Shown here in pieces: positions 5,255 through 29,643 of a stretch of 59,388 nt of DNA; position 1 is the first letter of the stretch; every line of letters starts with the position of its first letter. A program made the position numbers and the translations under genes. The stretch is taken from NCBI RefSeq assembly GCF_000331535.1, contig NZ_AMZN01000052.1, forward strand, positions 1-59,388, given 5' to 3'. The DNA is from Fulvivirga imtechensis AK7. GTDB taxonomy: Bacteria > Bacteroidota > Bacteroidia > Cytophagales > Cyclobacteriaceae. The notes under the pieces were generated by a model, which saw only the letters and a program-made list of their open reading frames with translations, had not been told where the DNA came from and did no database searches.

Positions 5255-6355
5255 GTGAAACAGCTTCCAAAATCAATACAAGTTACCAATATACTCTTCA
5301 TGATCTGCCTGTTGCTGGCGCTGCTGATCATAGGCCGTGAATTTTTGTATCCGATATTTCTGGCAATACTATTTGCTTACCTGCTTTTTCCGCTGGCTGC
5401 CCTCCTGGAAAAATGGCGTTTTCCACGAGTGCTAGCCATACTTTCTTCCATAATTTTAGGTATGGCTGTTATAGGAGGTGCTATGTACTTTTTTTATCAG
5501 CAGCTTAAGGTTTTTCTGAATGACTTTCCTGAACTCAAGGAACAGGCTTACAGCAATCTGGACGCTTTGCAGCGCAAAATTGATCTGGTTACCGAAAATA
5601 ATAATGAGCAGCGGTGGTGGCTTCGCGAGCGAATTGGTGAACTTATCAATAACAGTGGCAACTTATTTAATACTATTTTCAGCGCTACTACCGGTACGGC
5701 TGTTAAGATGGGCCTGCAGCCGGTGTTTGTATTCTTCATGCTCTACTATCGCGAACGCTTTAAAAAGTTCATATACATTGTGTTCGGAGAGCACAGCTAC
5801 GGTAAGGTACGACAAATTCTGGGTGAGGTGTCAGAGGTTACCAAAAACTATATCAGTGGCGTTTTTATCGTGGTTTTTATTCTTTGTTTCCTCAATTCTT
5901 TTGGCCTGATGATCGTAGGAGTGGAGTATGCTGTTATGTTCGGAATATTATCTGCTGTAATGAATTTCATCCCATATTTCGGTACGCTGATTGGCGCAAT
6001 ATTTCCTTTGGCCTATACACTGGTTTCGGACGAACCTGCAAATGCTGTCGGGGTGGTGATATTGTTTATGATTATTCAGTTTACGGAAAATAACATTCTT
6101 ACGCCAAATATCACTGGCGGCCGGGTTGCCATCAATCCATTCTTTACCATACTGGTGATCATAGCAGGAGGGATGGTATGGGGGATCCCGGGTATGTTTA
6201 TGAGTGTTCCCTATGCGGGGATGGCAAAGGTGGTGTGCAGCCATATTCCCGGACTTCGTCCTATTGCCTTTCTTATTTCCAGAAATAAAGGGTCGCAGTT
6301 GCGGAACGGCTGGAAAATAATTAAGGGCTGGTTTGCCGGAAGGAGAAAAGCCTGA
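5255..6355 (+). CDS. AI-2E family transporter (PerM/YdiK-like permease)
   Basis: A 366-residue integral membrane protein of the AI-2 exporter family. It starts at GTG; no ATG lies nearby in frame. Hydrophobic helices occupy roughly residues 11-30, 33-50 and 58-82, then a polar, partly coiled region to ~150, then five more helices, with the family-typical FIPYFGTLIGAIFP and ENNILTPNITGGRVAINPF. Family members export autoinducer-2 in E. coli or act as Na/H antiporters elsewhere, so the substrate is open. The stop codon abuts that of the convergent receiver-kinase gene. Confidence 0.85.
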   Translation: MKQLPKSIQVTNILFMICLLLALLIIGREFLYPIFLAILFAYLLFPLAALLEKWRFPRVLAILSSIILGMAVIGGAMYFFYQQLKVFLNDFPELKEQAYSNLDALQRKIDLVTENNNEQRWWLRERIGELINNSGNLFNTIFSATTGTAVKMGLQPVFVFFMLYYRERFKKFIYIVFGEHSYGKVRQILGEVSEVTKNYISGVFIVVFILCFLNSFGLMIVGVEYAVMFGILSAVMNFIPYFGTLIGAIFPLAYTLVSDEPANAVGVVILFMIIQFTENNILTPNITGGRVAINPFFTILVIIAGGMVWGIPGMFMSVPYAGMAKVVCSHIPGLRPIAFLISRNKGSQLRNGWKIIKGWFAGRRKA

Positions 6356-7555
6356 CTATGGCTGGTTTAGGGTAACAGTAAATGTAGTACCCATGCCTTT
6401 GAGGCTCGCCACTTCAATAGAGCCACTGTTCTTCTCCACGAACTCTTTGCAAAGGATTAATCCCAATCCGGTACCTTTTTCACCTGCTGTGCCTTTGGTG
6501 CTTTGATTGTCCCCGATATTGAATAGGGTGGTAAGCTTTTCTATGCTCATGCCTACTCCGGTATCGGCTACTACAATTTCGGCCTTCGACTTATCAATAG
6601 CTTTTGTCGTGACAGATACTTTGCCTCCCGGTTCTGTAAATTTAATGGCATTGCTTATGAGATTGCGCAGAACAAGTTTCAGATGATCTTCATCCGCATA
6701 TACTTTCAGTCCATCGGCCAAATCCATCTCCAGGTTGATGTTTTTATTGCCAGCAACGGCAGCTAGTTGTGTGAGTATTTTTTCTATTACCGCATTGACG
6801 TCTACCTCTGTTGGGTTGAGGTTGGCCTTGTTCATCTGGGAATAAGCCCAGGTAAGCAGGTTCTCTATGAGCGATAAAACATTTTTGACCGACTTGTTTA
6901 GTTCTTTGGAGTATTCGGCCACTTTCTCAGGAGGTAATTGTTTCCCGTTGCCGGCCAGTATTTCGGAAAAGCCGGCAAGCGCACTGATCGGGCTGCGGAG
7001 ATCATGCGCGACAATGGAAAAAAACTTGTCTTTTGTGGCATTGAGTTCCTCCAATTCGTTGTTTTGTACATTTATTTCTTCTAAAGCCTGCTCCAGCTCG
7101 GCTGTTCTTTCTACCACCTTCTGTTCCAACTGTTCATTGATATCTTTTAATTCCTGTACCAGCGCCTGGTTGTTCTTCCTCAGGGTCAGGGCTTCCAGTG
7201 CATTATCAATGGTCATTTTTAGCTCATCTTTGTCCCATGGTTTAGTAATGTACCGATACACTTTTCCTGAATTGATGGCCTCGATAATAGCCGATACATC
7301 GCTAAACCCGGTAAGGATCATTCTGATCGCAAGCAGGTCTTCGGGGAGCTGTTTCAAAAATTCAATGCCTGTCATGCCGGGCATTCGCTGGTCAGTGATG
7401 ATGACCGATATATCATTCTCCTGGATTATTTTTAGGCCATCAGCAGCAGATGAAGCTGTGTATATCTCATAAAATCTGCGAAACGATGACTTAAAAACGA
7501 TCAGGTTGTTTTCCTCATCATCTACATATAATATCTTCGGCTTATTTTCTACCAT
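6356..7555 (-). CDS. Receiver-histidine kinase hybrid
   Basis: A 399-residue cytoplasmic signalling protein. Residues ~7-120 are a receiver domain with the acidic pocket (YVDDEE), the phospho-acceptor Asp55 in VIITDQRMPG and Lys105 in ITKPW. A coiled coil at ~125-170 leads to a HisKA domain with His184 in FFSIVAHDLRSP, and an HATPase with N box (NLISNAIKFT), G1 DTGVGM (331-336) and G2 GTGLGL (361-366). It has no membrane segment, so its input is probably phosphotransfer to the N-terminal receiver. It starts 4 bp after the stop of the propeller kinase, its likely partner. Confidence 0.9.
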   Translation of the reverse strand: MVENKPKILYVDDEENNLIVFKSSFRRFYEIYTASSAADGLKIIQENDISVIITDQRMPGMTGIEFLKQLPEDLLAIRMILTGFSDVSAIIEAINSGKVYRYITKPWDKDELKMTIDNALEALTLRKNNQALVQELKDINEQLEQKVVERTAELEQALEEINVQNNELEELNATKDKFFSIVAHDLRSPISALAGFSEILAGNGKQLPPEKVAEYSKELNKSVKNVLSLIENLLTWAYSQMNKANLNPTEVDVNAVIEKILTQLAAVAGNKNINLEMDLADGLKVYADEDHLKLVLRNLISNAIKFTEPGGKVSVTTKAIDKSKAEIVVADTGVGMSIEKLTTLFNIGDNQSTKGTAGEKGTGLGLILCKEFVEKNSGSIEVASLKGMGTTFTVTLNQP

Positions 7556-7559
7556 ATTC

Positions 7560-10500
7560 TTAATTCAAATTTAAAGGCAACTGAATGATAAATTCGGTTC
7601 CCTTACCAGGGGCGCTTTCGACCTCGATCTTGCCGCGATGCTTTTCTATGATGCCATAGCTAATGGACAAACCCAGCCCGGTACCTTCTCCTACATCTTT
7701 AGTAGTGAAAAATGGCTCAAAGATCTTTTGCTTGAGCTCATCACTCATGCCTTTTCCGGTATCCTTTATCCTGATCATAATACTGCCATTTTGTTGCATG
7801 GTTTTGATCATGATCTTTCCGGGGCCATCAACGGCTTGTATGGCATTATTCAATATGTTCATAAATACCTGGTTCAGTTGCCCGGGATAACAATTGACAG
7901 GAGGCAGGTCCTCGTACTCTTTAACTACTTCTATCCGGTCTGACATCTGATTCCGTAAGATCACCAGTGTAGAATCAAGACCCTCATTAATATTGGCCTT
8001 CTTTAATGAATCTTCATCTAGCCTTGTAAAGTTCCTCAGGCTCTTGATTATTTCCGTTGTTCGGTTTGCCCCGGCTTTTATACTCTCTAACAATTGAGGA
8101 ATTTCGACCAATAAATAATCAAGATCAAGCTCTTTTTTTAACTGATCGATCTCCAGGAGTAGATCGCTATTATTGTTACCGGCCTCCAGTAGGGCGTATT
8201 TTTGAAGTATCTCGCTGAGGTCCTGATAGTTAGTGCTTAAAGAATCGATGCCGGCCGACACGAAATTAATAGGATTGTTGATCTCATGCGCTACACCAGC
8301 GGTAAGCTGCCCAAGGGAGGCCATCTTCTCTGACTGTACTAATTGCGTCTGAGTGTGTTTCAGGTCTTCAAGTGTGGTGGTCAGTTCCTCATTGATCTCA
8401 TTGAGTCGCAGGTAGGCATATGAATTATCCAGGGCAATGGCCGTATATGCCGCCAATGTCCTCAAAATGTCCAGATGAAATGGTTCGTATGCCTGTCTTT
8501 TAAAGCTCTGCACAGTTATGACTCCTATGATCTTATCCTTCAGTTTTATAGGCAGGTATATGAGCGATTCCGAATGTCTGGCTCCTGCTGTGGGTTCTAT
8601 GTCAAGAGTCGAGATATACCGGGTATATTCCTCTTGCAGATCATTGATAAATACTTCCGTGGAGTTATTAAAACACCATACCGCCATTTTGTTGGTAGCA
8701 TTCAGGGGCTGAGTAAAAGCCGGTAGCTCAATGCCGCTTTCATAGGAGTATTTGAAATCAATAGTGTTGTTCTCCTCATTGACCAGGCCTACTCCAAAAG
8801 AGTCCGATTCCATCAGCGTATTGATGCTTGTATATAGCGTTGATATGATACTCTTCAGATCCAAAGTGGAGGTAATGCTTTGTCCGATTTGGCTCAGGGT
8901 GGTTAGATTTTTGTAAGATTTTTCTACAGCATTTTTCTGCTTTTCAATCTTCTCCTTTTGCTGACTTATCTCTGCAGTTCTGTTTTGCACGATAGTTTCC
9001 AGTCGCAAATTGTCTTTTTTAAGTTTGTTGGAATATCCATTAACCACCAGATAAAGGAAGCCAACAGTAGCAAACAGGTAAGCTATGTAGGCATAAGGGG
9101 TTCGATACCAGGGGGGAAGCACGGCAAAAGAGTAGGAAGCTTCTTTTCCAACTATATCATATATGTTTTTGGCTTTTACCTTAAACGTATAGTTGCCCTC
9201 GGGCAAGTTAGTGTATTCTTTTTTTGTTTCCCTGTTCCAGGCTGACCAGGATTCATCATAGCCATCTAACTTATAGGAATATAAATTTCCATATTCATGC
9301 TCGAAAGCGGTTGCAGCAAATTGAAACGACATCGAATTGTTTACATATGCGAGTGTCGGTGTCATAGAAACTGGTTGTGAAGTAGATACGCGATGTTTTA
9401 CAATGGAAGGACCATGATAATTGGAAAGATAGGCCCCCTTGAATATGATAGAATCGTTGGCTGTCTCAACTTTCCTGATCAATACATCAAAGAGGTGTTC
9501 ATTGTTATAGTTATACTTGCTATCATAACGGAAAAGCCCATCGGGGGTGCCAAACCATAGTATACCGTCTCTATCGGTATAACCGGTAACCTGATTTTCA
9601 GGTGACACCACTATGCTTTTAAATTGACTTTCCTCAAGAGAGTAGCCATCACGGGTTTTAATGAACATACCTTTGCCTTTGTCGGAGTCAAACCACAAGT
9701 TACCCTTGTTATCTTTGTTGAGGTAGTAGATCCATCGTTCTTCATGCCGAAGGGCGTTGTCAAAAAGGGGATGTTTTTCAAATATATCTTTATCGGAATT
9801 ATATCTGTAAATACCCTTTCTGGTAGTAACCAGGACCTCATTGTCAATATTGAAAAAATAATTCCAGTTAAGTGTAGGAATGCCTTCGGCAAGGCCATAT
9901 CTCCGGATGGAGCCGGTCATGTCATTTCTTCCCGCCAAATGCGCCTCCCAGTCGTGAATATTCATTTTAAAAACGCCCCCGTATAGAGTGCCTATCCATA
10001 TATTGCCATAGTTATCGGGTTTTATACTTCGGATCTCTTCCTGAGGCATATTTATTTTTCCTTCTTTTTGCCACTTGCCATCTGCATACCTGAGGGAAAC
10101 AACCTCACCGATGAGCCCAACAAACAGCCTGTCGGGAAATAAGGGGGAATTGCAGATGGCCCCGATTCTTCCGCTGAAGACCTTTGTAGCCCGGGTGCCA
10201 CTTATTTCGTACAGGCCATCACTACCAGTCAGGAGGAGTTTTTGTTTGCCAGGTTCATCCGGAATATTAAATTTTGTCAATTCCCAGCACTGTGTATTGA
10301 CATTGGTTATTTGCTCAAACCGGCTGTTATCATTTAATACGAATACACTTTGGTGAGTGCTTACATACAGCCTGTCTTCATGTCTGTTTATGGCTAATAT
10401 TCCTCCATTCAATCCCGAGATCTGGTCAAAAACAGTAATTGGTGAAATGACATCTACTTTTGAAATACCGTTGGCAAGGGCTATCCAAAGAGCGCCATTG

Positions 10501-16340: not shown

Positions 16341-19300
16341 TTATACCAGCACCTTACACTTCAATTCGGGCATTTTTTTTATTTCCTCCAGCATTTTATT
16401 GCTGGGGTTGACCTTATACTTCCGTGACATCAGCTCTACGGCAATATTTTCCTGTGTGTCAATCAGGTTCATATGGAGGGCACACTCACCTTTATGCTCC
16501 TGACAGATCTGCTCTATGTGATTGATCAGGGATTCAGTCATTTCTTCCAGGTTGACATTCACCATGATCCCCTTGGTTTTTTTATCCCTGAGGTCATTTA
16601 GCAGTTCAATACTGTGGATCTTGAATTCCAGCTCATTGTTGCCCCACTTTCGCTCAGCCACACGTCCCTGAAGGTAGAGGAACCATCCCTGCATCAGGTA
16701 TTCTTTGAACTTAAGGTAATCATCACCAAACAGGAAAAAGGTAAAGTTGCCGTTGTAGTCTTCCATAGTGAGGGTGCCGAATGGCTTTCCATTTTTTGTG
16801 GTGCGGTGTGCATAACCTGACACCACACCTGCTACACGCACTTCCTTACCCTGCAGCGGAGGAAGATCATTCAACTGGTTGAGTTCCGTATTGCAGAAGC
16901 TGTCAATTTCAAACCTGAAGTCATCCAGTGGGTGGCCCGAAATATACAGCCCGACCACATCGCGTTCAATATTCAGTTTTTCTATCTCTCCGAAAGGTTC
17001 CATATGAGGGATCTTCGGACGCGGAGTTTCGACACCTGTATCACCACCAAACAGACTGGCCTGAGAGCTTTCTGCCTCCATCTGCATTTTGTTGGCGTAT
17101 TTGATCACCTTCTCGATCAGTGTCTGGTCATTTTCCGGTGCATGGAGGTATTGCCTGCGGTGAAACTCTTCGAAACAATCGAAAGCTCCCGACATGGCCA
17201 GACATTCAAAGGTCTTTTTGTTAACAGTCCTTAAGTTCACCCGCTCGGCAAAATCAAAGACATCTTTGTAGTGGCCATGCTTTTCCCTTTCCTCAATAAT
17301 TGCTTCTACGGCAGCTTCACCACTACCTTTGATAGCCCCTAGTCCGAAGCGGATCTCTCCTTCTTTGTTTACAGCAAAGTTTACAGCGGATTCATTGATG
17401 TGAGGGCCAAGTACTTTAATACCCAGGCTACGACATTCTTCCATAAAGAAGGTCACTTTTTCAATGTTGCTCTGATTGTGGGTAAGCACTGCTGCCATAT
17501 ACTCGGCAGGATAATGGGCTTTTAGGTAGGCCGTTTGATAAGCTACCAGCGAATAGCAGGTAGAGTGCGACTTGTTGAAGGCATATGCGGCAAAGGCCTC
17601 CCAGTCCTTCCATACCTTGTTAAGCACGTCAGGATCATGACCCCGTTCTTTTCCTCCCTCAATGAATTTTGGCTTCAGTTTTTCCAGGAGGGCGAAGATC
17701 TTCTTACCCATGGCTTTACGCAAAACATCGGCATCACCTTTGGAAAACCCTGCCAGCTTCTGCGACAGCAACATCACTTGCTCCTGGTATACCGTAATAC
17801 CGTAGGTTTCCGCCAGGTATTCTTCCATATCCTGGATGTCATAGGTAATGGGCTCCTCGCCATGCTTACGGGCAATGAAGTTAGGGATGTATTCCATTGG
17901 CCCCGGTCGGTAGAGGGCGTTCATGGCTATCAGGTCTTCAAATTTATCCGGTTTCAGCGCTCTCAGGTGCTTCTGCATACCGGGCGACTCAAACTGGAAT
18001 GTTCCGTTGGTTTCCCCTCTCTGGTAAAGTTGGTAGGTTAGTTCATCGTCAAGTGGTATGGTATCTATATCTATTTCCACACCGTGCCGGGCCTTTACAT
18101 TGGCAATGGCAGATTTGATGATAGTGAGCGTCTTCAGGCCCAGGAAGTCCATCTTCAACATGCCGGCACTCTCCACCACGCTGTTATCAAATTGTGTGAT
18201 CAGCATCTCGGAATCCCTGGCAGTAGAAACCGGTATGAACTTGGTCAGGTCGTCAGGGGTAATGATCACCCCACAGGCATGTGTTCCGGTGTTTCGTACC
18301 GATCCTTCCAGAATTTTAGCCTGCTTGAGTACCCTGGCTTTGAGGTCTGATCCCCTTCTCAGGTCGTCAAGTTCTTTTACCTCTTTAAAGGCCTTATCCA
18401 ATGAGGTACCTGGTCGTTCAGGTACCAGCTTGGCCAGATCGTTAGCTTCCATCAGGGGGAGTTCCATCACCCTGGCGGCATCTCGTATAGAAGATTTGGC
18501 GGCCATGGTGCCATAGGTAATGATCTGCGCTACCTGTTGCTTGCCGTATTTGTTAATTACATATTGAATTACCTTATCCCGGCCTTCATCGTCAAAGTCA
18601 ATATCAATATCGGGCAGTGATACCCTGTCAGGGTTCAGGAAACGCTCAAACAGGAGATCGTACGCTATCGGGTCAACGTTTGTGATCCCGATGCAGTAGG
18701 CTACGGCCGAACCTGCAGCAGAACCCCGGCCTGGCCCTACAGATACACCCATCTCTCTGGCTTTCCCTGTAAAATCCTGCACGATAAGGAAGTAGCCCGG
18801 ATATCCGGTATTTTTTATGGTCTCCAGTTCAAAATCAAGCCTTTCCCTGATCTCATCGGTAATCTCAGGATATCGTTTTCTTGCGCCCTCATACGTCAGG
18901 TGTCTGAGATATGCATTTTCTCCTCTTTTGCCTCCATCTTTTTCATCCTCAGGGTCTTTAAACTCTTCGGGAATGTTAAATGCAGGAAGCAGAACATCGC
19001 GATCAAGCTTGTAAGTCTCGATCTTGTCGATCAGTTCGGTGAGGTTTTCAATGGCTTCCGGGATATCACTAAAGAGCGTTTTCATCTCTTCCTGCGACTT
19101 GAAATAATATTCATCGTTGGGGAAGCCAAAGCGAAATCCTCTGCCACGACCGATAGGAGTAGATTTCATTTCCCCCTCCTTCACGCATAGCAGTACATCG
19201 TGCGCTTCTGCATCCTCCCGGTCGATATAATACACATCGTTGGCAGCGATTACTTTTACGTGATACTTTTTGGCGAAATCAAGTAGTACCTCATTCACGC

Positions 19301-20570
19301 GGTTTTCTTCCTCCAAGTTATGACGAAGGAGTTCTACATAAAAATCTTCTTTGAAAATTTCCAGGTACCACTGAAAGGCCTCTTCGGCCTGGTGCTCACC
19401 CACATTGAGGATAAGAAAAGGTATCTCGCTGTACAACCCTCCTGTCAGGGCTATTACATCCTGCGAATATTGCTTGATAAGGTCCTTGTCAATACGCGGA
19501 TAGATGCCGTAGAGGCCCTCCATATAGGCCAGAGAGCTGAGTTTGGCCAGGTTGTGATATCCATTTTTGTTTTTGGCGATCAGTACCTGGTTATATCTTT
19601 TGTCAGGATTGTCTTTGGTGAACTTCAGTTTGAGTCTTTCCTCGGCTACATAAAATTCGCATCCAACAATAGGTTTTATCTCGTTGTTGAGCGCCTCCCT
19701 AACGAACTTAAAAGCCCCGAACATGTTTCCCAGGTCCGTGATGCCGATAGCAGGCATATTGTACTCTTTAGCCTTGGCAACCAATCCTTTGATATCCGGT
19801 ACGGCCTGTAGTACCGAGTACTGCGAATGCACATGTAGGTGAGCAAAAGGGAGGTCGATCTTTCTTGCGGCTTCCTTGTCACCACCGAAATCGGCAGGGC
19901 CTTTTTTAACAACCTTGGCGAAGTTGGCTTCTGCCAGTTTGGGAGCTTCGTAGGCGATTTCCTCAATGGCTGTTCCATCCAGTGGCGCAACCACTTTTTG
20001 AGTAAGCAAACCGAAGAAACATTTTGCAGTAGCGTTTACGTCATAAGCAGCATCGTGTGCATCGTCAAATTTTACACCAAACAACTTTTCATGTAACTCA
20101 ATAAGCTTCGGAGCCTTGAGTTTTCCACCCACACCACCTTGCAACTGGCAAAATTCTGTTGATGCCTCAGCAGTATCTATTTTTTGCATCTCCAGCAGCC
20201 CATGTCCCTGGTCGCTCTTGCCAATCCTAACATATTCGGTTCCTACTATGCGGTTATCAAAGTCAATATTGTGACCAATTACTGCCTGAGCGCCTTGCAG
20301 ATCTTTGCCGAATATCTCTAATACCTCCGCCAGGTCATGGCCTTCTTCCAAAGCACGTTTGGTAGAGATACCGTGTACTTTTTCAGAGTTATAAGGAATG
20401 GTAAAGCCATCAGGTTTAACAATAAAATTCTGAGCGGAAAGCAGCTTTCCATTGGCATCATGCAACTGCCAGGCAATTTGAACCAGCCTGGGCCAGTTTT
20501 CCAGATCGGTGATAGGTGCGCTATAATTATGAGGTAGACCGGTGGTTTCGGTATCAAAAATTAAATACAT
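16341..20570 (-). CDS. dnaE: DNA polymerase III alpha subunit with N-terminal proofreading exonuclease
   Basis: A 1409-residue replicative polymerase. Residues ~1-195 form a DnaQ-like DEDDh 3'-5' exonuclease: FDTETTG (Asp6, Glu8), GHNIDFDN (Asp103/105) and HDAAYD (His172, Asp177). The PHP domain starts near 242 with HLHVHSQYS. The polymerase palm contains GPGRGSAAGS and the catalytic acidic PDIDIDFDD. Near residue 1190 an OB-fold (VRVAGVVSGYAHRTTKNGK) follows. E. coli DnaE is about 1160 residues with a separate DnaQ; here proofreading is fused in cis. A TAGTTTTG box lies ~30 bp upstream of the ATG. Confidence 0.95.
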   Translation of the reverse strand: MYLIFDTETTGLPHNYSAPITDLENWPRLVQIAWQLHDANGKLLSAQNFIVKPDGFTIPYNSEKVHGISTKRALEEGHDLAEVLEIFGKDLQGAQAVIGHNIDFDNRIVGTEYVRIGKSDQGHGLLEMQKIDTAEASTEFCQLQGGVGGKLKAPKLIELHEKLFGVKFDDAHDAAYDVNATAKCFFGLLTQKVVAPLDGTAIEEIAYEAPKLAEANFAKVVKKGPADFGGDKEAARKIDLPFAHLHVHSQYSVLQAVPDIKGLVAKAKEYNMPAIGITDLGNMFGAFKFVREALNNEIKPIVGCEFYVAEERLKLKFTKDNPDKRYNQVLIAKNKNGYHNLAKLSSLAYMEGLYGIYPRIDKDLIKQYSQDVIALTGGLYSEIPFLILNVGEHQAEEAFQWYLEIFKEDFYVELLRHNLEEENRVNEVLLDFAKKYHVKVIAANDVYYIDREDAEAHDVLLCVKEGEMKSTPIGRGRGFRFGFPNDEYYFKSQEEMKTLFSDIPEAIENLTELIDKIETYKLDRDVLLPAFNIPEEFKDPEDEKDGGKRGENAYLRHLTYEGARKRYPEITDEIRERLDFELETIKNTGYPGYFLIVQDFTGKAREMGVSVGPGRGSAAGSAVAYCIGITNVDPIAYDLLFERFLNPDRVSLPDIDIDFDDEGRDKVIQYVINKYGKQQVAQIITYGTMAAKSSIRDAARVMELPLMEANDLAKLVPERPGTSLDKAFKEVKELDDLRRGSDLKARVLKQAKILEGSVRNTGTHACGVIITPDDLTKFIPVSTARDSEMLITQFDNSVVESAGMLKMDFLGLKTLTIIKSAIANVKARHGVEIDIDTIPLDDELTYQLYQRGETNGTFQFESPGMQKHLRALKPDKFEDLIAMNALYRPGPMEYIPNFIARKHGEEPITYDIQDMEEYLAETYGITVYQEQVMLLSQKLAGFSKGDADVLRKAMGKKIFALLEKLKPKFIEGGKERGHDPDVLNKVWKDWEAFAAYAFNKSHSTCYSLVAYQTAYLKAHYPAEYMAAVLTHNQSNIEKVTFFMEECRSLGIKVLGPHINESAVNFAVNKEGEIRFGLGAIKGSGEAAVEAIIEEREKHGHYKDVFDFAERVNLRTVNKKTFECLAMSGAFDCFEEFHRRQYLHAPENDQTLIEKVIKYANKMQMEAESSQASLFGGDTGVETPRPKIPHMEPFGEIEKLNIERDVVGLYISGHPLDDFRFEIDSFCNTELNQLNDLPPLQGKEVRVAGVVSGYAHRTTKNGKPFGTLTMEDYNGNFTFFLFGDDYLKFKEYLMQGWFLYLQGRVAERKWGNNELEFKIHSIELLNDLRDKKTKGIMVNVNLEEMTESLINHIEQICQEHKGECALHMNLIDTQENIAVELMSRKYKVNPSNKMLEEIKKMPELKCKVLV

Positions 20571-20601
20571 ACAGGTGTGCGTAGTGGTTGAAAAAGACTC
20601 A

Positions 20602-20609
20602 CAAAACTA
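20602..20609 (-). promoter_or_regulatory. Bacteroidota-type -7 box for dnaE
   Basis: Minus-strand TAGTTTTG matches TAnnTTTG and lies 32 bp before the dnaE ATG, which gives a leader of about 25 nt. Confidence 0.45.
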
Positions 20610-20698
20610 ATCTTTAAATATCGGAAAAGTAAAGCAGAACATGTGAAAATATGAGAGGGAATTTGAAGAACCGGATCAGTAGTCTTTACCATGCTTTT

Positions 20699-21092
20699 GC
20701 CAAGGAATGAAAACATTGATCTGGAGTGAGATTTAGTGCTTTCCTAAGCCTTCAAGGACTAGGAAAGCTTATTCCGGCACTTACCGGACCTTAAAGCTTT
20801 ACCAAACTTTGGAAGCTTAGTAAAGCACCCCTGAAGTTAATATTGGAGTTTGTTGGTGCAGCAAAACACCAACAAGCTGAGAGAATTGAAACATTGATCT
20901 GCCTATACTGCAACTCAACTGCCAGGAAGGCAACTGATCGGGTTGAAGTTTCAAACCGGATCTACTTACTGTACCTTGGTATCATTAAAGCCAACTATAG
21001 ACAACGAAAAGATCCTCCCAGGCCAGGTCCCGGGAGGATCTTTTGTTTTATACACCCAAAGGGTTGTTGGTGAAAACACCAACAAAAGGGTA
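20699..21092. repeat. Structured tandem repeat, copy 1 (~394 bp)
   Basis: First full unit of an array lying between dnaE and a TonB receptor. Ordered parts on the plus strand: a TGAAAACATTGATCTG motif (20708-20723); a long branched stem, GTGCTTTCCTAAGCCTTC (20736-20753) with GAAGCTTAGTAAAGCAC (20812-20828), enclosing an inner CCGG hairpin; a 12-bp stem at 20847-20858/20867-20878 ending in GTTGGTG/CACCAAC; TGAAACATTGATCTG again (20887-20901); a terminator-like stem (21011-21040); and a second GTTGGTG aaaa CACCAAC hairpin (21064-21085). Short ORFs inside differ between copies mostly by amino-acid-changing substitutions, so this looks like RNA, not protein. Confidence 0.8.
21011..21040 (+). terminator. 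Terminator-like hairpin in repeat copy 1
   Basis: GATCCTCCC pairs with GGGAGGATC across a 12-nt loop and is followed by TTTTGTTTT on the plus strand. AAAA precedes the stem, so it could also act in the other direction. Confidence 0.7.
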
Positions 21093-21485
21093 GCCAAAGA
21101 ATGAAACATTGATCTGGAGTGAGATTTGGTGCTTTCCTAAGCCTTCAAGGACTAGGAAGGCTTATTCCGGCACTTACCGGACCTTAAAGCTTTACCAAAC
21201 TTTGGAAGCTTAGTAAAGCACCCCTGAAGTTAACATTGGAGCTTGTTGGTGCAGCAAAACACCAACAAGCTGAGAGAATTGAAACATTGATCTGCATATA
21301 CTGCAACTCGCCTGCCTGGAAGGTGACTGGTCGTGTTGAGGTTTCAACCGAGGTTTGCCTGCCGTATCTTAGCTATCAATTAAAGCCAACTATAGACAAC
21401 GAAAGAATCCTCCCGGGCAAGGTCTCAGGAGGATTTTTTTGTTTTATGCCCTGCGGGTTTTGTTGGTGCAAAATACCAAAAGAGT
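21093..21485. repeat. Structured tandem repeat, copy 2 (~393 bp)
   Basis: Second unit, very similar to copy 1 over its whole length and most strictly over the branched stem, the GTTGGTG hairpin (21240-21251/21260-21271) and TTAAAGCCAACTATAGACAA before the terminator. Differences keep pairing: the hairpin has a perfect C-G where copy 1 has U-G, and the terminator's outer pair is A-T where copy 1 has G-C. TGAAACATTGATCTG occurs twice again (21102-21116, 21280-21294). The final GTTGGTG hairpin (around 21462-21478) is partly decayed. Confidence 0.8.
21406..21435 (+). terminator. Terminator-like hairpin in repeat copy 2
   Basis: AATCCTCC (21406-21413) pairs with GGAGGATT (21428-21435) and is followed by a run of six T and then GTTTT. 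Confidence 0.75.
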
Positions 21486-21650
21486 GTGGAGTTAAGTATA
21501 GTGCTTTCCTAAGCCTTTAAGGACTAGGAAAGCTTATTTTGGCGATTGCCGGGCTTTAATGCATTACCCACCTTTGGAAGGTCAGCAAAGCATCCGGAAG
21601 TTTTTTAATTTGGACTTTGTTAGTGCAAAATACCAACAAATTGGAGATCC
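21486..21650. repeat. Structured tandem repeat, partial decayed copy 3
   Basis: Contains GTGCTTTCCTAAGCC (from 21501), the branched-stem region with several substitutions, and a GTTAGTG/TACCAAC version of the hairpin (about 21618-21640). It then loses similarity. Downstream, 21690-21698/21711-21719 form a 9-bp TATTTTTTG/CAAAAAATA stem, and GAAAGCTTTAAAGCTTTC at 21730-21747 is an 18-bp perfect palindrome. Confidence 0.7.
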
Positions 21651-21855
21651 AGTGTTGAGTTAAGTGTACTGTGCCGTATAAGTTGCAGTTATTTTTTGTT
21701 CCAGGCAACGCAAAAAATATGAGCATCCCGAAAGCTTTAAAGCTTTCAGGACGTAAGTATTTTTTAAGGCGGTATGGGACAAAAAGAACAAAGCTTGGTA
21801 TGGCTAAAGTATGCTTAACTCAACACTACATTACTTCAACTCGCTCGCTATAGAA

Positions 21856-21885
21856 AAAAAGCTGCTCATTATTGAGCAGCTTTTT
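21856..21885 (-). terminator. Terminator after the second TonB receptor gene
   Basis: GCTGCTCA (21861-21868) and TGAGCAGC (21873-21880) form a perfect stem with a TTAT loop, flanked by A and T runs on both sides. It is 24 bp past the receptor stop and can work in both directions, so it separates the receptor operon from the repeat array. Confidence 0.85.
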
Positions 21886-21908
21886 AAAATTCATAGTAGA
21901 TATATTAT

Positions 21909-24779
21909 CTAGAACCTCACGTTCACCGCCAGGCTAAACATTCTCCCAAGTTGGCTAAAGTGATAGCCATCATAGGTCATTTGAGAGTAACGTTGATTAA
22001 ATGTTATAAGATTAGATGGAGTATTAACTACATCATAAGTGCCATTTAAAATATTACGCCCGGTTTCTGTCACTTCGACAAATTTCCATTCAGGTAGTAC
22101 ATCCAACACATTATTTACATTGAATGAAAATGTGATTTTATCTGTGGCGTTATACTGAACAGCAAAATCGGTTACAATCCTGGGCTCAAATTCAGTTCTT
22201 AAATCAGACTTCCCATCAACGATTAAGCCATTCGATATATTGTTAGGATCATTTTCGTCAAAACCGATGACGGTATACTCTAAGTCCTGTAAGCCTTGTT
22301 GAGCAAATTCAGTTTTTCCAAAGTAAGTGTTGTTAACGGAGAAGCCGAATTTTCCTATATCGTAATTCATGCCGACAATCCATTTGGTTTTTGGTCTTGA
22401 AGTGAAGAATAATGCTTCCTGTGTTTCGTTGACAACAGATTGTTCTGCATCAGCAACAATCTTCGGGTTATTAACTGCTCCGTCCCTTTGATTTTCTATT
22501 GTGTAATTTCCAGAAATATTGAAAGATAGAGAACCATTTCCTAGTTGTATGTTGCGATAACTGGCCACGACATCAACACCGGATGTACGGGTGTCTAAAG
22601 CATTGACAAAAAAGCTTACGTCTGAGAGATTATTTTCATTCAATACATCATCTAATGTTGTATTGCCGGCACTTGTTCGGCCAATTTCAGTACTCAGTAC
22701 AATACGATCTTCAACAGCGATATTATAATAATCAACTGTTATGTTAAAATTTGAAGATGGTTGGGCTCCAAGACCAACGGTGAAGTTAGTTGATTTTTCA
22801 GCATCAAGTTGCGGTATCCCGAGTAGTTTTGCTTGGGGGGAAACGTTATTAACCAGTCCTCCCACTTGAATACCCTCACCTGGCACGAAACTATATTGAG
22901 CCTTCTGAGTATATATTTGGTGTAATGTTGGAGCTCGAAAACCGGTTGACAATGAGCCTCTTATGGTCAATTTGTCATCCAAGAACTTATATCTGGAGCT
23001 CACTTTCCATACGAACGCATTTCCAAAATCACTGTAGTTTTCAAGACGCATAGTACCATTGATGAGGAAGTCAGGAGTTATGTCAAAGGCTAAATCTACA
23101 TAACCACCAAAGTTGTACCTGTTAAATTTGCCTGAATTTTCAGGACGATTACCAGCAAATGAGTCTGCTCCGCCACCATCATAAGATGCCAGTTCTCCTT
23201 CAATAACTTCAAAAGTTTCAGATCTAAATTCTGAACCAAATGCTATTCCGATTTGATCGGTAATTATCCTGGAAATATCAATATTTCCTACCGAATGTGA
23301 AAAACGTGTGCCTCCGGGATCAAAAGAGATGGGGCTATTTTCACGATACAAAGGAGCAAAGGTTATCTCTCCAGGGTCTACCTGATGGTTTCCATCTGCA
23401 TCATCCCATATAGGACCTGAGGATACATCATTTCCATTGTGCGAATTTCTAACTGTATAAGTCTGCTGATTTCCTCCAGTTGTAAAACTAATATCATAAG
23501 TCCAGTTGTTTTTGCTGGACTTGAAGCCAACTGTGGCGTTATAATCGTTGAGGTCTCCATCGAAGGTAGGTACATACCCTACATAAGTTCCGTTAGGACC
23601 ATTAGGAAAAAAATCGGCTAGGTATGGATAAGCAGCTTCTGTTCTCCAATAGGGCGTTCGGTAGTTAGCAAAGCTGTTGACCTTTTTATAAATGTAGGCA
23701 GCGTTAAAGTATAGATTAGTCGTTTCGCTAAGATCCAGACCACTGTTTATAGCAAATTTAGCAGCAGTAGTTTCTGGCGAGCCGTTGATGTTTCCTGCAT
23801 CTGGCTTGAGTGTAAGAAAGGTTTGTACATCTTCTATGTTAGCACCAAAATCGGCTGCCTCACCTGCTGCGTCCACAGTACCAGGTCTATTAGCAAGGTT
23901 TACTTTCGAAAGATCGATGGTGTAATTGATGAATCCTTTTCCCTGGCCAAGCGAACTGCCGTTGTTAAGAGAAACTCCTATCATCTCGCCATCTCCTTCA
24001 GAAGTAATACCGGACCTTAGTGTTACCGAGCCTTCTTCAGCATCATCTTTCAGTATAATATTCATTACACCGGCTATGGCATCGGAGCCGTACTGCGCTG
24101 ATGCTCCGTCTCTAAGGATTTCTACCCTTTTTATAGCGTCTGTTGGTATACTCGAAATATCAGCTCCTGTTTCACCACGCCCGGGTGAAGTTTGGGTGTA
24201 AAGCAGTGAACTGAGGTTTTTACGCTTGCCATTGATCAGTATTAAGGTTCTGCTGGGCCCCATGTTCCTAATCTCGTAAGGGTCTAGCAATGAAGTCGCA
24301 TCATTCACAGGAGTTTGTACCGTGTTGAATGATGGTACCCGGTATTGCAGGGCCTTGTCAAACGAGTTCTGTCCGGTAGAGGTCAGTTCGTCAGCCTGAA
24401 GCATATCTACAGGAAGGGGAGTATCCGTTGATGATCGCGGGGCGCCACGCGAACCAACGATAACGATATCCTGTAGTGTCAGGTGATCTTCCTCAAGCTT
24501 TACGTTCCAGGTTTTGCTTTCACCGGCAGCAAGCGTCATTTCCTGGGTTTGCGTAGCGTAGCCTATATAGCTGACAGAGATATTATAGGTGCCTGGTGAA
24601 AGGTTCAGTGAGTATTTTCCTTCTACATCAGTAGTAGTTCCCACTCCGGAACCGGCAACAATCGATGCGCCTATTACCGGTCCGTCAGCACTGGTAATAG
24701 TGCCCGTGATCATTTGCGCACTCACCCACCCAGGCAGGGCGAAGAGCAACATTAATAAAATAGTAAGTTGTTTTTTCAT
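21909..24779 (-). CDS. TonB-dependent receptor with carboxypeptidase-like N-terminal domain
   Basis: A 956-residue outer-membrane receptor. A signal peptide (MKKQLTILLMLLFALPGWVSAQ) is followed by a CarboxypepD_reg-like beta domain (~23-100), then the plug domain with NGKRKNLSS and IKRVEILRDGASAQYGSDAI, and a C-terminal beta barrel ending in an aromatic residue (LAVNVRF). There is no STN domain, so it transports but does not signal by itself. Its plug and barrel resemble those of the receptor just upstream, so the two look like diverged paralogues. No SusD partner is present. The substrate is unknown. Confidence 0.92.
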   Translation of the reverse strand: MKKQLTILLMLLFALPGWVSAQMITGTITSADGPVIGASIVAGSGVGTTTDVEGKYSLNLSPGTYNISVSYIGYATQTQEMTLAAGESKTWNVKLEEDHLTLQDIVIVGSRGAPRSSTDTPLPVDMLQADELTSTGQNSFDKALQYRVPSFNTVQTPVNDATSLLDPYEIRNMGPSRTLILINGKRKNLSSLLYTQTSPGRGETGADISSIPTDAIKRVEILRDGASAQYGSDAIAGVMNIILKDDAEEGSVTLRSGITSEGDGEMIGVSLNNGSSLGQGKGFINYTIDLSKVNLANRPGTVDAAGEAADFGANIEDVQTFLTLKPDAGNINGSPETTAAKFAINSGLDLSETTNLYFNAAYIYKKVNSFANYRTPYWRTEAAYPYLADFFPNGPNGTYVGYVPTFDGDLNDYNATVGFKSSKNNWTYDISFTTGGNQQTYTVRNSHNGNDVSSGPIWDDADGNHQVDPGEITFAPLYRENSPISFDPGGTRFSHSVGNIDISRIITDQIGIAFGSEFRSETFEVIEGELASYDGGGADSFAGNRPENSGKFNRYNFGGYVDLAFDITPDFLINGTMRLENYSDFGNAFVWKVSSRYKFLDDKLTIRGSLSTGFRAPTLHQIYTQKAQYSFVPGEGIQVGGLVNNVSPQAKLLGIPQLDAEKSTNFTVGLGAQPSSNFNITVDYYNIAVEDRIVLSTEIGRTSAGNTTLDDVLNENNLSDVSFFVNALDTRTSGVDVVASYRNIQLGNGSLSFNISGNYTIENQRDGAVNNPKIVADAEQSVVNETQEALFFTSRPKTKWIVGMNYDIGKFGFSVNNTYFGKTEFAQQGLQDLEYTVIGFDENDPNNISNGLIVDGKSDLRTEFEPRIVTDFAVQYNATDKITFSFNVNNVLDVLPEWKFVEVTETGRNILNGTYDVVNTPSNLITFNQRYSQMTYDGYHFSQLGRMFSLAVNVRF

Positions 24780-24839: not shown

Positions 24840-27800
24840 TTAGTTAAAGGTGAAATTGAATCTGGCGAAGTAGAAGCCACCATTGAATCCGAACTGGGTA
24901 ACCCTCCGCGAGTAAACGAAGCGTTCATTGCTCCTGAACTCTTTTCTGTTTTCATCAGGGTAGATGTCAAACAGGTTATTTGCACCCACAGTCAGATTCA
25001 AATGCGAGGTGAAGTCATAGCCCAGGCTGAGGTCTGTCACTACCTTGGCCTCAAATTTTTGGTCTATATAGTTACCATCAGCATCTTTATTGTCAGTACG
25101 GGCCCAGACTTCTCCAAAACGAACATTGGTCAGGTTTACATGGACTTTCTTAAATCTGTAGCTTAATGATAAGTTGATCTTTGATTGAGGCAGGGCATCT
25201 TCAAACCGGTTTCTTTCCTCACGGTTAAAAAACTGATCGGGGGCTCCCATTAGAGTCTGTGGTATGTGAATATCTACTACCTCGGTGCTGGTGAAGTTAC
25301 CTGCCAGAGAGGATTTCAACGTGCCGGCCCCGATTGATTTTTTGTGAGTAAGGATAAAATCAATACCCTTGGTTTCGGTGTCAATGGCATTAACAAAAAA
25401 TGTAGCTGATCCCGCGTTGGCCTGAGCAAGAATTGCTGCTATTTCATCGCTGCTACTGGAGCTGAAAGAGCCCGTGAGCACTACCCGGTCATAAACTTTT
25501 ACGAGGTACCCATCGAGGGTGAAATCCAGGTTTTCCATCAGGCTCCATGTGGTACCCGCACTAATATTCAGTGAGCTTTCATTTGTGAGGTTGGGGATAC
25601 CGAATAGCTTAGCTATGCGTGAATCATTTCTAAATGTGCCTATTTCATTAGGCACGTTTACCCCTTCTGCATTCAGAAAGAACAGGGTGGATGTGCTGTT
25701 GTAATAACGCTGGGGCAGGGAAGGTGCCCTGAAGCCGGTACTTACAGCCGCCCGTAGTGCCAGCGCCTCTGTTACTGCCAAGCGGGCTGCTGCTTTCCAG
25801 TTAAAGGTGTTTCCAAAATCGCTGTAGTTTTCATACCTGACGGCAGCGTCAACGAAGAAGTTCTCACTGAAGTTGAACTCGATATCTGTATAAAGGGCAA
25901 TATTGGAACGTGTTTCTGTCAACTCATTGCCCGGCTGCAAACCAGGGAAAACCTGTGCGCCTCCGGGTCTGTTATAGAAGATATTTTCCTGGTTGAAGCC
26001 GTTGCTAAAAGGAGTGCCATCATTAAGCGTGTCAATAACATCTACGTTGCCATAGTTTCGGTAAGAGCCTTCTTCCCCGGCAAAAATTTCATATGTATCC
26101 ACACGGTATTCGGAACCAAAGGCTAGGTTTATACCTGAAAGGGCGTATTCAAAATACCTGCTGAAGTCCAGGTTGGTAGTGTTTTGCGAGAACCTGAAGC
26201 CCCCGGCATTAAAAGAGGTGGGCGTGCTGTTGCCTCGTGAGGCATTGAGGCTGTTCGTAACCAGGTATGTGAAATGATTGGTGCCATAGGTATTGCTCAG
26301 GTCTATATTCCATTGTCCGATATCTCCTCTTAAACCACCGGTAATTGCACCGTCAAAAATAACAGTATTGATCTCGGGTAAAAAGCCGTTAGGATAAACG
26401 GTAGTGAGGGTACGATCCTGATTAGGTAACCTGTAAAAACCCGTTGCCAGACCGTTACGCGAGTTAAGACTTCCAAAGATGTAAAGTTCTTTATTGTTAT
26501 CAATTTCAAAAGAGGAATTCAGCATCAAAGCTGTATTAATGGCTTCAGATTGGCCGACTTTCATAGTGAAGGCCCTTCTTCCTCCATTTTGGTTGATCAG
26601 GGCTTCTTCCTCTTGTGCTGTCAGGTTGTTGGTAATGGCATTGGCAGCATTTATGGCATCGGCCTCCTCTTGTGTCAGCCGCTGGCCCAGGTCAAATGGA
26701 CTGAAATCGCCCGCTTCATAAAGTTCGGAATAAAGACCTTTAACAGGATTGCCATCAGCATCAGTAGGGTGCGTAGTCTTAAAAACAGTGTCGTCCCATT
26801 TGCCTGCTCTGTCAGTTCTGCCTCTGTGTTGGTATTGTCCGGTGAGGTTGATGAACCCCTTTTCGCCTATATTAAAACCGTAATTAACGTTAAACTGTGC
26901 AGTCTTACCATCTTCCTCGTAAGTCTGGCCGGCAGTCCCCGAAAAATAGAGCTGGTTGACATTGTCTTTCAATACTATATTAATAACACCTGCAATGGCA
27001 TCAGAGCCATATTGTGCAGCCGCACCGTCCCGCAATACTTCTATCCGTTTGATAGCGGCTGCAGGGATAGTGTTGAGATCAGTGCCAACGGAACCACGAC
27101 CAACAGAACCATTTACATTGACCAGGGCTGAGGTATGTCTCCGTTTTCCATTGATCAACACCAGCACGTGATCTACACTCAATCCTCGCACGGAAGCAGG
27201 ATCTACATGGTCGGTGCCATCTGCTATAGTCTGGCGATTAGAAGAAAAGGACGGGGCCACATAATTTAATATTTGAGCTACTTCCACCTGTGGGGCTTCT
27301 TTTACAATTTCATCCACTGAGATCACATCCACAGGAACGGGTGTCTCAAGTACGGTTCTGTTCATATTTCTGCTTCCTACCACCACTACTTCCTGAAGGC
27401 GGGCTTCATCCAGTTGTAGGTAGACATAAACTGCACTTCTGTCTCCCACCGCGATTTCCTGCATCTTGTAACCGATATGGCTAACCACAAGTATCGCTTC
27501 ATCGGGAATGGCTAACGTCAACTGGCCTGAGAGGTCGGTAGTACCCCCTGTGGTGGTACCCCTTATCAAGACACTTGCACCGGGAAGGGGATGATTTTTT
27601 TCATCGAAAACGGTTACGGTGACAAGTTTGTTAAGCATATCCACTTCAACAGGGTCATCATGTCGGTCCCTGTATCTTAACTTATTTACACTGATATCCT
27701 GATTGATTTGTCTGAATTTTAACCGGGCAGCCCTGGAAATATCACCCAGGATCTCTGCTATGGATGTATGTGAATAGCTTTTAGTGAGGTAAATGTCCGT

Positions 27801-28007
27801 ACGAAGGTCATCATCACAATAATGGAACCTGAACTCTGTTTTATTTTCTATTTTTTTGAATGTTTCCTTCAGGCTTGAATTTTTCAAGTGCAGGTCGATA
27901 TAAACATCTTTTACACTCTTTGCCTGAAATGGCTTATCGTTGGCAAGTACATTGGTTACCATTATCATTAAAGCCACTAGAAGAACTACCGTGTAAGACC
28001 TGTTCAT
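24840..28007 (-). CDS. FecA-like TonB-dependent receptor with STN signalling domain
   Basis: A 1055-residue outer-membrane receptor. After a signal peptide (~1-22) comes an STN domain (~40-105, NSSLKETFKKIENKTEFRFHY with DISRAARLKF), then a CarboxypepD_reg-like domain (~128-205), a plug with INGKRRHTSALVN and IKRIEVLRDGAAAQYGSDAI, and a barrel ending FARFNFTFN. The STN domain is the part that contacts a FecR protein in transducing receptors, and a FecR gene ends 9 bp upstream, so this is likely the signalling receptor of the locus. The ligand cannot be inferred. Confidence 0.93.
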   Translation of the reverse strand: MNRSYTVVLLVALMIMVTNVLANDKPFQAKSVKDVYIDLHLKNSSLKETFKKIENKTEFRFHYCDDDLRTDIYLTKSYSHTSIAEILGDISRAARLKFRQINQDISVNKLRYRDRHDDPVEVDMLNKLVTVTVFDEKNHPLPGASVLIRGTTTGGTTDLSGQLTLAIPDEAILVVSHIGYKMQEIAVGDRSAVYVYLQLDEARLQEVVVVGSRNMNRTVLETPVPVDVISVDEIVKEAPQVEVAQILNYVAPSFSSNRQTIADGTDHVDPASVRGLSVDHVLVLINGKRRHTSALVNVNGSVGRGSVGTDLNTIPAAAIKRIEVLRDGAAAQYGSDAIAGVINIVLKDNVNQLYFSGTAGQTYEEDGKTAQFNVNYGFNIGEKGFINLTGQYQHRGRTDRAGKWDDTVFKTTHPTDADGNPVKGLYSELYEAGDFSPFDLGQRLTQEEADAINAANAITNNLTAQEEEALINQNGGRRAFTMKVGQSEAINTALMLNSSFEIDNNKELYIFGSLNSRNGLATGFYRLPNQDRTLTTVYPNGFLPEINTVIFDGAITGGLRGDIGQWNIDLSNTYGTNHFTYLVTNSLNASRGNSTPTSFNAGGFRFSQNTTNLDFSRYFEYALSGINLAFGSEYRVDTYEIFAGEEGSYRNYGNVDVIDTLNDGTPFSNGFNQENIFYNRPGGAQVFPGLQPGNELTETRSNIALYTDIEFNFSENFFVDAAVRYENYSDFGNTFNWKAAARLAVTEALALRAAVSTGFRAPSLPQRYYNSTSTLFFLNAEGVNVPNEIGTFRNDSRIAKLFGIPNLTNESSLNISAGTTWSLMENLDFTLDGYLVKVYDRVVLTGSFSSSSSDEIAAILAQANAGSATFFVNAIDTETKGIDFILTHKKSIGAGTLKSSLAGNFTSTEVVDIHIPQTLMGAPDQFFNREERNRFEDALPQSKINLSLSYRFKKVHVNLTNVRFGEVWARTDNKDADGNYIDQKFEAKVVTDLSLGYDFTSHLNLTVGANNLFDIYPDENRKEFRSNERFVYSRRVTQFGFNGGFYFARFNFTFN

Positions 28008-28016
28008 AGGTGATAT

Positions 28017-29018
28017 TTAATTATCCTGACGTATGATCATCACTTTTTTACCCTGAATGAGATATTCAAAGTCTAATGCATAGCTCATATTGTCCAGTAC
28101 ATGGGTAAGACTGGCATTTTCAAAGCGACCTGTATATTTTCTGTTGAGATCAAACTTTCCTGTAATCTCGAATTCTACATCATACCATAGTTCAAGAGTG
28201 TTGATGATCTGTTTTATAGAAGTTTGTTTGAAATAAAGTACCCCTTCTTTCCATAGGAGGTCTTTGTTCTGATCAAAAACAGTTTTCATTGCTGTACGTG
28301 TAACAGTGTTCACCTCCAGCGCTTCTCCGGGGCTGAGCACAAATGTTTTCTCTACACCGGTATCATCCTTTTGAGGAATAACTATAACCTTACCGCTCGC
28401 CAGTGATACTTTGCATACCTGATCCCGGGCGTTGATATTAAATGAAGTGCCCAGGGCTGTAGTGGTGGTGCCATTGGCGATCACAGAAAAAGGGCGTGTT
28501 TTGTCTTTTGCCACCTCAAAAAAAGCTTCTCCCTCCAGCGTAATGACCCTGCTGGAATCGGTGAAGGTCTTTAAATAGGATATCTTACTTCCTGAGTTAA
28601 GAGTTACCTTAGAGCCATCGCTAAGCTGAATAGTCGATTTCATGCCGGCAGGTGTGCTTTTTACCACCATCTCAGGAACGACCGGGCCAGGAATATTGGC
28701 TGATTGCCTTTGTATGAAATAAAAAGTAAACATTAACACCAAAGAGATGCAAGCAGCATACAACCACGGCTTTATGGAATAATGTTTGGCATCAGCGGCA
28801 GGCAGATACACCTCCTTTTTGATGTTCTTATACAGTTGGTCAGAATTAATGCCGGGAGCCGGGTCCGCAGCCGAAGCTTCCAGCCAGGCTTCATCAGCCA
28901 ATTCATCCAGCCATTGGTCAGCGTCATCAGCGGCTAATAATTTTAAAGCTTCTTTTTGTTCTTCTTCAGAACAAGATCCTTCCAGGTACCTTTTGAGCAG
29001 GTCTTTGTTCGATTTCAT
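28017..29018 (-). CDS. FecR family anti-sigma/sigma regulator
   Basis: A 333-residue inner-membrane regulator. The N-terminal cytoplasmic part (LLKRYLEGSCSEEEQKEAL ... WLDELADEAW) fits the anti-sigma domain, a single membrane helix lies near residues 86-104 (LYAACISLVLMFTFYF), and the periplasmic FecR domain follows (IQLSDGSKVTLNSGSKISY, GEAFFEVAKD, ALGTSFNI). The C-terminal ~75 residues (FKQTSIKQIINTLELWYDV) match the STN-like DUF4974 typical of Bacteroidota FecR. It lies between the sigma factor and the STN receptor. Confidence 0.93.
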   Translation of the reverse strand: MKSNKDLLKRYLEGSCSEEEQKEALKLLAADDADQWLDELADEAWLEASAADPAPGINSDQLYKNIKKEVYLPAADAKHYSIKPWLYAACISLVLMFTFYFIQRQSANIPGPVVPEMVVKSTPAGMKSTIQLSDGSKVTLNSGSKISYLKTFTDSSRVITLEGEAFFEVAKDKTRPFSVIANGTTTTALGTSFNINARDQVCKVSLASGKVIVIPQKDDTGVEKTFVLSPGEALEVNTVTRTAMKTVFDQNKDLLWKEGVLYFKQTSIKQIINTLELWYDVEFEITGKFDLNRKYTGRFENASLTHVLDNMSYALDFEYLIQGKKVMIIRQDN

Positions 29019-29091: not shown

Positions 29092-29643
29092 TTATTTTTC
29101 TTTAAAATCGGGTCCCATAAAGTCTCGCAGTTCTTTTGTAGCCCTGTAGAGTTGATTTTCTACCGTTCGCTTAGAAATATTTAGTTTTTCCGCAATTTCT
29201 TCATTGCTTAAGCCCTGCTGTTTGCTGAGCATAAATATTTGTTTACGGCCAGGGGAGAGCTGGTCCAGCCCTTTATTGGCCTGATCCAGCAGATTGGTGA
29301 AAATGATATAATCCTCGGTTTGTTGATGGAAGTGGGATTGTGAATTTTGCTGATTGGCGAGGTACTCATCCTCAAGGATCTTTCTTTTTACTTTTTTGAG
29401 TACTACCCGTTTTGTAATGGTAAATAAATAGGCAGGGAGAGAGAGTTCTTCGTTAAGGGTAGCCTTGTTTTTCCACACTATGATGAATACTTCCTGTATA
29501 ATACCCTCTGCATCTTCATGGCTTTGACCCATTTTTCTACTGAAATGGTAGAGCTTTCGGTGGTATTTGTCAAATAACATACGAAAGGCGGATTCATTAC
29601 CTTTTTTCAATGACCTGACTATTTTTTCATCGGGTAAGAACAT
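29092..29643 (-). CDS. ECF RNA polymerase sigma factor (FecI-like)
   Basis: A 183-residue sigma-70 family protein with only regions 2 and 4. Region 2 reads AFRMLFDKYHRKLYHFSRKM ... DAEGIIQEVFIIVWKN, and region 4 has the HTH QGLSNEEIAEKLNISKRTVENQL. It heads the sigma-FecR-receptor-receptor block on the minus strand and should direct transcription of the receptors when the FecR partner is signalled by the STN receptor. Confidence 0.94.
   Translation of the reverse strand: MFLPDEKIVRSLKKGNESAFRMLFDKYHRKLYHFSRKMGQSHEDAEGIIQEVFIIVWKNKATLNEELSLPAYLFTITKRVVLKKVKRKILEDEYLANQQNSQSHFHQQTEDYIIFTNLLDQANKGLDQLSPGRKQIFMLSKQQGLSNEEIAEKLNISKRTVENQLYRATKELRDFMGPDFKEK

Follow-up and report, generated by a model that had tools for sequence, protein, structure and literature searches.

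The FopS sRNAs of Bacteroides thetaiotaomicron are ~65-70 nt in length and combine a conserved single-stranded 5' stretch with an intrinsic terminator and a canonical promoter; they occur in 12-15 copies per genome, repress SusC translation, have the RRM protein RbpB as a partner, and were deposited in Rfam (PMC11697453). The same source names Qrr, the Cia-dependent sRNAs, and LhrC as multicopy sRNAs (PMC11697453). Here, we analyzed a window of 59,388 nucleotides from Fulvivirga imtechensis AK7 (the whole stretch, positions 1 to 59,388 of contig NZ_AMZN01000052.1), which holds a tandem repeat array between two genes. To our knowledge, few sRNA families have been described in Bacteroidota outside Bacteroides. 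Our best reading is that the array carries members of a new, multicopy sRNA family that belongs to Fulvivirga and related Cytophagales and is expanded in Fulvivirga.

The array consists of two full units, ~90% identical and spaced by 393-395 bp, and a decayed third copy. Such an arrangement had been proposed in a preliminary description of this DNA and was borne out: direct repeats link 20711-20977 with 21104-21370 (91% over 267 nt) and 20984-21049 with 21379-21444 (86% over 66 nt), and the third, partial copy spans 21487-21595 (82% over 109 nt). A search of the own genome with unit 1 retrieved the second unit over 21093-21447 (90%) and the third over 21487-21639 (79%). The hairpins, the terminators, and the motif TGAAACATTGATCTG of that description, including its extra-A form, were likewise present at the coordinates checked; this exact 15-mer is found at 20887, 21102, and 21280, the extra-A form near 20708, and among the loci compared the motif (with at most one mismatch) is confined to the window locus. 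The array and its neighbors, the latter assigned with Pfam, are as follows.

16341-20570, minus strand: DNA polymerase III alpha gene, left of the array
20711-21049, plus strand: full unit 1, with palindrome pair, hairpin, and sRNA gene
20738-20826: the two palindromes of unit 1, at 20738-20768 and 20796-20826, mutually paired in the predicted fold
20847-20878: hairpin AGYTTGTTGGTG of unit 1
21104-21445, plus strand: full unit 2, ~90% identical to unit 1
21131-21219: the two palindromes of unit 2, at 21131-21161 and 21189-21219
21240-21271: hairpin AGYTTGTTGGTG of unit 2
21487-21639, plus strand: decayed third copy, with palindrome pair and hairpin, without the sRNA gene
21503-21591: the two palindromes of the third copy, at 21503-21533 and 21561-21591
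21909-24779, minus strand: TonB-dependent receptor, right of the array
24840-28007, minus strand: TonB-dependent receptor, SusC-like, right of the array
28017-29018, minus strand: FecR
29092-29643, minus strand: ECF sigma factor

The window copies of the sRNA gene thus adjoin a sigma/FecR/receptor cluster. Between the array and the first receptor lies a MITE-like element of ~177 bp (21651-21827) with an inner palindrome and 20-nt terminal inverted repeats (AGTGTTGAGTTAAGTGTACT, 90% complementary); an end similar to that of this element adjoins a palindrome at C10:27442 (L020).

Each full unit is a composite of REP/BIME-like palindrome DNA and an unrelated sRNA gene. The 61 matches of unit 1 in its own genome are mostly of two separate kinds, namely a part of ~105 nt (20732-20838) that contains a pair of ~31-nt imperfect palindromes and is dispersed elsewhere without the rest of the unit, and the last ~78 nt (20972-21049), which recur at seven other places where the palindromes are absent. 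The hairpin at 20847-20878 gave no match outside its contig in the own-genome search. We take the palindrome pair to resemble a REP/BIME element: its imperfect palindromes are short, paired, present in many copies, and dispersed between genes as well as arranged in tandem. REP/BIME palindromes go with RAYT (Y1) transposases, and the genome has seven Y1_Tnp matches; however, the pair is found beside only one of the seven Y1 loci, and the likeness is limited to the palindrome module and excludes the sRNA. The palindrome pair would be a REP/BIME-like repeat in its own right, duplicated along with the sRNA gene. In another genomic region (L151, C55:256463-257127), the palindrome pair forms a tandem array of its own, in which five copies are strong and a sixth is weaker, at ~116 bp spacing and without the sRNA.

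This composite nature bears on the extent of the RNA, which the preliminary description had put at ~350 nt, with a branched 17-bp stem as one of its parts. Unit 1 folds well compared with shuffled sequences (z of -7.4) and has a terminator at its end, as a single structured RNA of this length would suggest, but its minus strand folds equally well (z of -7.5), as palindromic DNA would, so that folding alone is no proof of an RNA. We reject one ~350-nt RNA per unit, which we consider extremely unlikely, because the palindrome and sRNA parts are found apart in the genome and because a promoter pattern lies between them; in addition, the third copy lacks the sRNA part. The branched stem is made by the two REP-like palindromes, which occur elsewhere without the RNA, and the predicted RNA corresponds only to the last ~62 nt of the unit, with its own promoter, a longer transcript being without comparative support. 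The core idea of a duplicated RNA gene stands, whereas the extent and structure first assigned to it do not.

The 3' end of each full unit looks like a small-RNA gene, with a predicted RNA of ~62 nt and the following elements.

20914-20940, plus strand: predicted two-site operator of copy 1, CTCAAC (20914-20919) and TGATCG (20935-20940), placed from the family logo
20949-20979, plus strand: predicted promoter of copy 1, TTT (20949-20951, -33 box) and TACCTTGG (20972-20979, -7 box)
20984-21049, plus strand: sRNA copy 1, predicted start ~20984 (+-2), terminator and T run to 21045-21049, 80.6 bits with covariance model R1
21328-21372, plus strand: predicted promoter of copy 2, half-site TGGTCG (21328-21333), TTT (21342-21344), and TATCTTAG (21365-21372)
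21380-21445, plus strand: sRNA copy 2, predicted start ~21380, 78.7 bits with R1

On the plus strand of the window, R1 matches only at 20984 and 21379, that is, outside the third copy. The predicted fold of the two window copies comprises an unpaired 5' stretch followed by the terminator (z of -4.5 and -3.6). For the alignment, we used 49 of 56 distinct copies, defined by at most three substitutions from the core, a T run, and sufficient flank; 7 close relatives of other copies were dropped by hand. Across the 49 copies the 5' stretch is near-invariant (AAAGCCAACUAUAGACA / AAAGCCAACUAUAGACAAC / AAAGCCAACTATAGACA) and unpaired in the prediction, the terminator loop reads about RCCAGGYC in most, and the terminator stem covaries, with both-sided changes in 8 of its 10 pairs. 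Two-sided changes filled 92 cells, compared with a mean of 24.8 in shuffles (0/500 reached 92) and with 6-31 when the partner was slid; of the five measures of covariation, the count of additional pair types was the one that did not exceed shuffles (178/500). Regarding the compensatory changes reported between the window copies, the outer terminator pair is indeed exchanged on both sides (G-C at 21011/21040, A-T at 21406/21435), whereas at 20849/21242 only one side changes (U-G to C-G). Variant copies with TATAAAC replacing TATAGAC and with a different loop were seen in four genomes (G002, G009, G012, and G013), always near ordinary copies.

Nine copies are present in the own genome, seven of them away from the window locus and without palindromes, and none of the nine overlaps an ORF of at least 110 aa. 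The marks of a multicopy sRNA, namely several intergenic copies per genome with a promoter pattern and a covarying terminator hairpin, are present here. Comparison among genomes supports the gene family together with its structure, promoter pattern, and distribution, and we infer from sequence that the copies are transcribed. It is very likely, in our assessment, that an undescribed, genus-expanded sRNA gene family exists.

The promoter pattern was derived from 380 placements, many of them repeated across overlapping loci, which were reduced to 170 non-redundant copies; 6 without a -7-like box were dropped. Anchored on the -7 box, the logo of the remaining 164 copies reads TACCTTTG at that box. 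Relative to it, a TTT box occupies -23 to -21, and two half-sites, 20 bp apart, occupy -58 to -53 (TT.ATC) and -37 to -32 (T.RTCG). Comparison thus gives a gene anatomy in which a pair of half-sites with 20-bp spacing precedes a TTT box at -33 and a TAnnTTtG box at -7. The -7 box (at least 5/6 matches) was at its expected place in 150/170 copies, against 8-18 when this place was shifted by 15-60 nt and 15 when the flanks were shuffled; a complete T.RTC half-site was found in 53/164 copies at -57 and in 63/164 at -37, the median elsewhere being 1. Anchoring favors the -7 box itself, but neither the half-sites nor the TTT box. The sRNA would be made from this Bacteroidota-type -33/-7 promoter and ended by the intrinsic terminator with its conserved loop, and a regulator bound at the two half-sites would switch the copies on together; in the window, the outer half-site of copy 2 (about 21307-21312) is poorly preserved. 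A protein that binds direct repeats might fit half-sites with a 20-bp period, and LytTR genes lie near sRNA copies in G010 and G011. At L150:7269-9154 (G010), a histidine kinase and a LytTR response regulator are convergent with an sRNA copy. Given this orientation of the G010 gene, a LytTR protein as the regulator is no more than a guess.

The distribution of the family was assessed with R1. All 15 Fulvivirga genomes (15/15) contain matches, with 2-13 copies each at E <= 1e-4, often in tandem; loci of two of them, G008 and G004, are identical over stretches to records of F. marina and F. aurantia. In the host family, 116/390 sampled genomes and 14/84 genera match, with 1-3 copies outside Fulvivirga. 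These family-wide counts are lower bounds because the filters were strict. In a class-wide sample, 5/395 genomes match at E <= 1e-4; four belong to the host family, the own genome among them, and one is doubtful. The outlier in this sample, G763 (E of 3.4e-5), was not accepted. Within the order, a single genome from a different family, G250, matches at E 3.9e-5; this 46-bit match (C65:122701-122769, L116) has AAAGCCAGCTAT before its terminator and is possibly a distant relative. Of the order-wide matches at E values from 1e-4 to 1e-2, most of those we inspected look like plain terminators. A pattern scan of public genomes yielded 109 stretches, and the 80 of these that were listed carry Cytophagales or less specific Bacteroidota names, one being labelled uncultured Bacteroides.

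A covariance-model search of the kind proposed in the preliminary description found homologues with covariation in Cytophagales, which upholds its duplicated non-coding RNA gene, and its lack of a match to any known family agrees with Rfam. At gathering thresholds, Rfam gave no matches in the window, and at E <= 10 it gave 18 weak matches for window positions 20580-21900 and 10 for a single locus from a different genus, none convincing. We found no description of this sRNA family among openly licensed papers.

Since the copies are dispersed and also arranged in tandem arrays, we considered whether the sRNA-like part has spread as a selfish, MITE-like element without a regulatory role; the adjoining palindromes are repeat DNA, and one of the 7 Y1-transposase loci has the pair beside it. 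Such a mobile repeat is very unlikely, given that the promoter pattern and its spacing, the covariation of the stem, and the near-invariant 5' stretch persist while the flanks differ, and that the operon neighborhood described below is conserved in other genera.

In several genera, the sRNA lies upstream of an operon encoding an ECF sigma factor, a weakly recognized outer-membrane-barrel protein, a lipoprotein, YceI, and DUF5777. Outside Fulvivirga, its 1-3 copies are mostly just upstream of a gene, often this operon, and the operon-linked sRNA is often a tandem pair with ~165-190 bp spacing, in some cases up to ~290. Of 108 pattern-scan loci (1/109 was dropped, having no recognized RNA), 54 have at least two operon genes in the same orientation in the downstream 5 kb, 12 have one, and 42 have none, some of the loci being cut by contig ends. 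Counting last copies that have a next element, a same-strand ORF follows within 300 nt after 71/87 in other genera, 9/31 at other Fulvivirga loci, and 0/8 in the own genome; the last copy faces an opposite-strand gene in 6/8 cases in the own genome and in 16/31 at other Fulvivirga loci. In these counts, the genus was assigned by record titles and partly guessed, and L232-L260, some of which are Fulvivirga, were placed among the other genera.

The loci with operon genes downstream and the same-strand ORFs of other genera would suit an RNA acting in cis, as a terminated 5' leader (attenuator) of the sigma/lipoprotein/YceI/DUF5777 operon, with the dispersed Fulvivirga copies as duplicates of the leader that have lost the operon. 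We consider this unlikely: same-strand ORFs are absent or infrequent after the last copies in the own genome and at other Fulvivirga loci, about half of the latter copies facing an opposite-strand gene, and yet the 5' stretch is near-invariant. Furthermore, the gaps between sRNA and operon (40-200 nt) are enriched in -7-like boxes (59/66 against 43.5 expected from shuffles), so that a separate promoter may serve the operon. In other genera, the RNA may nonetheless act as such a leader. We counted the own-genome last copies, which mostly face opposite-strand genes and have no near same-strand ORF, in favor of trans action.

Some Fulvivirga arrays have a glycan-utilization setting, found in 3 of the 12 regions examined (L137, L138, and L140). 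GH92 is present in L137 and L138, GH43 in L138 and L140, and GH76 with SusE in L140; L138 also holds SusC, SusD, a sigma factor, and FecR. As L138 and L140 share gene types, they may represent one event. The L139 array has a different gene context, and the copy at C14:154261 adjoins another TonB receptor. The L137 array (4857-8463, in G006) has nine sRNA copies, mostly at ~263 bp spacing, in two blocks split by a 435-aa ORF with an SH3_3 domain.

We favor the reading that each full unit ends in a ~62-nt sRNA gene of a multicopy family that probably acts in trans on outer-membrane or uptake mRNAs. The own genome (assembly 98.5% complete) has no Hfq match and one RRM_1 protein, and from these features together with the FopS-like architecture we infer action in trans on the start regions of surface-protein mRNAs. 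The free 5' stretch would pair, as in FopS, with the start regions of outer-membrane or uptake protein mRNAs, without Hfq and perhaps with the single RRM protein. For trans action as such we regard the balance as leaning in favor; that the targets lie among outer-membrane genes is somewhat doubtful.

Pairing predictions were compared with permuted queries, over which most had no advantage. On 30 TonB-receptor starts of the own genome, the 5' stretch was equalled by 21/100 permutations and the loop by 2/100, the latter uncorrected for several tests and not claimed here. Among the operon genes, permutations were as good in 5 of 60 cases for the lipoprotein, 33 for YceI, 14 for DUF5777, 27 for the second gene, and 46 for the sigma factor, and single strong pairings with these genes were lost in orthologues. 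The best of 924 start regions was equalled by 4/40 permuted queries, and 8 start regions reached -18 kcal/mol or below, compared with a permutation mean of 3.8 and maximum of 13. The best-pairing start region was that of a MASE1 histidine kinase (L151:4245-5978, minus strand), with -24.0 kcal/mol at -32 to -12 of the ATG. The 14 genes tested near arrays or in the window included one candidate site.

27966-27990, minus strand: candidate target site, at about codons 6-14 of the SusC-like receptor gene 24840-28007

Pairing here amounts to -16.4 kcal/mol, with 1/200 permuted queries as good among these 14 genes, and is suggestive only.

The sRNA may help to control the outer-membrane content of the cell. 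With its clear anatomy, 1-13 copies within one bacterial family, and shared operator, the family would make the gain of sRNA copies, their exit from an operon, and their regulation of surface-uptake genes without Hfq testable. We entertain only tentatively the further idea of an independent FopS-like regulator in Cytophagales, in which an sRNA freed from a sigma-factor operon would have multiplied, its dispersed and tandem arrays sharing one two-site operator, settled among GH92/GH43/GH76/SusC/D/E genes, and come to tune the translation of SusC-type transporters without Hfq.

Compared with Qrr, the Cia-dependent sRNAs, and LhrC, the family likewise has several paralogous sRNAs with apparently one common regulator site; those systems belong to other phyla, have other sequences, and are likened by description, without alignment. 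Like FopS, the family has a conserved 5' stretch, predicted to be single-stranded here, followed by an intrinsic terminator, at about the FopS length (~65-70 nt), with a canonical Bacteroidota promoter and many paralogues per genome, in a phylum without Hfq and with RRM-1 proteins, and some Fulvivirga arrays lie among SusC/SusD and glycan-degradation genes. Although FopS was deposited in Rfam, the window copies and one further locus gave no match recognizable as FopS, and no other convincing one, at E <= 10. The tandem arrays of Fulvivirga, the two-site operator, and the sigma/YceI/DUF5777 linkage set the family apart from FopS in the part of its description consulted (PMC11697453).
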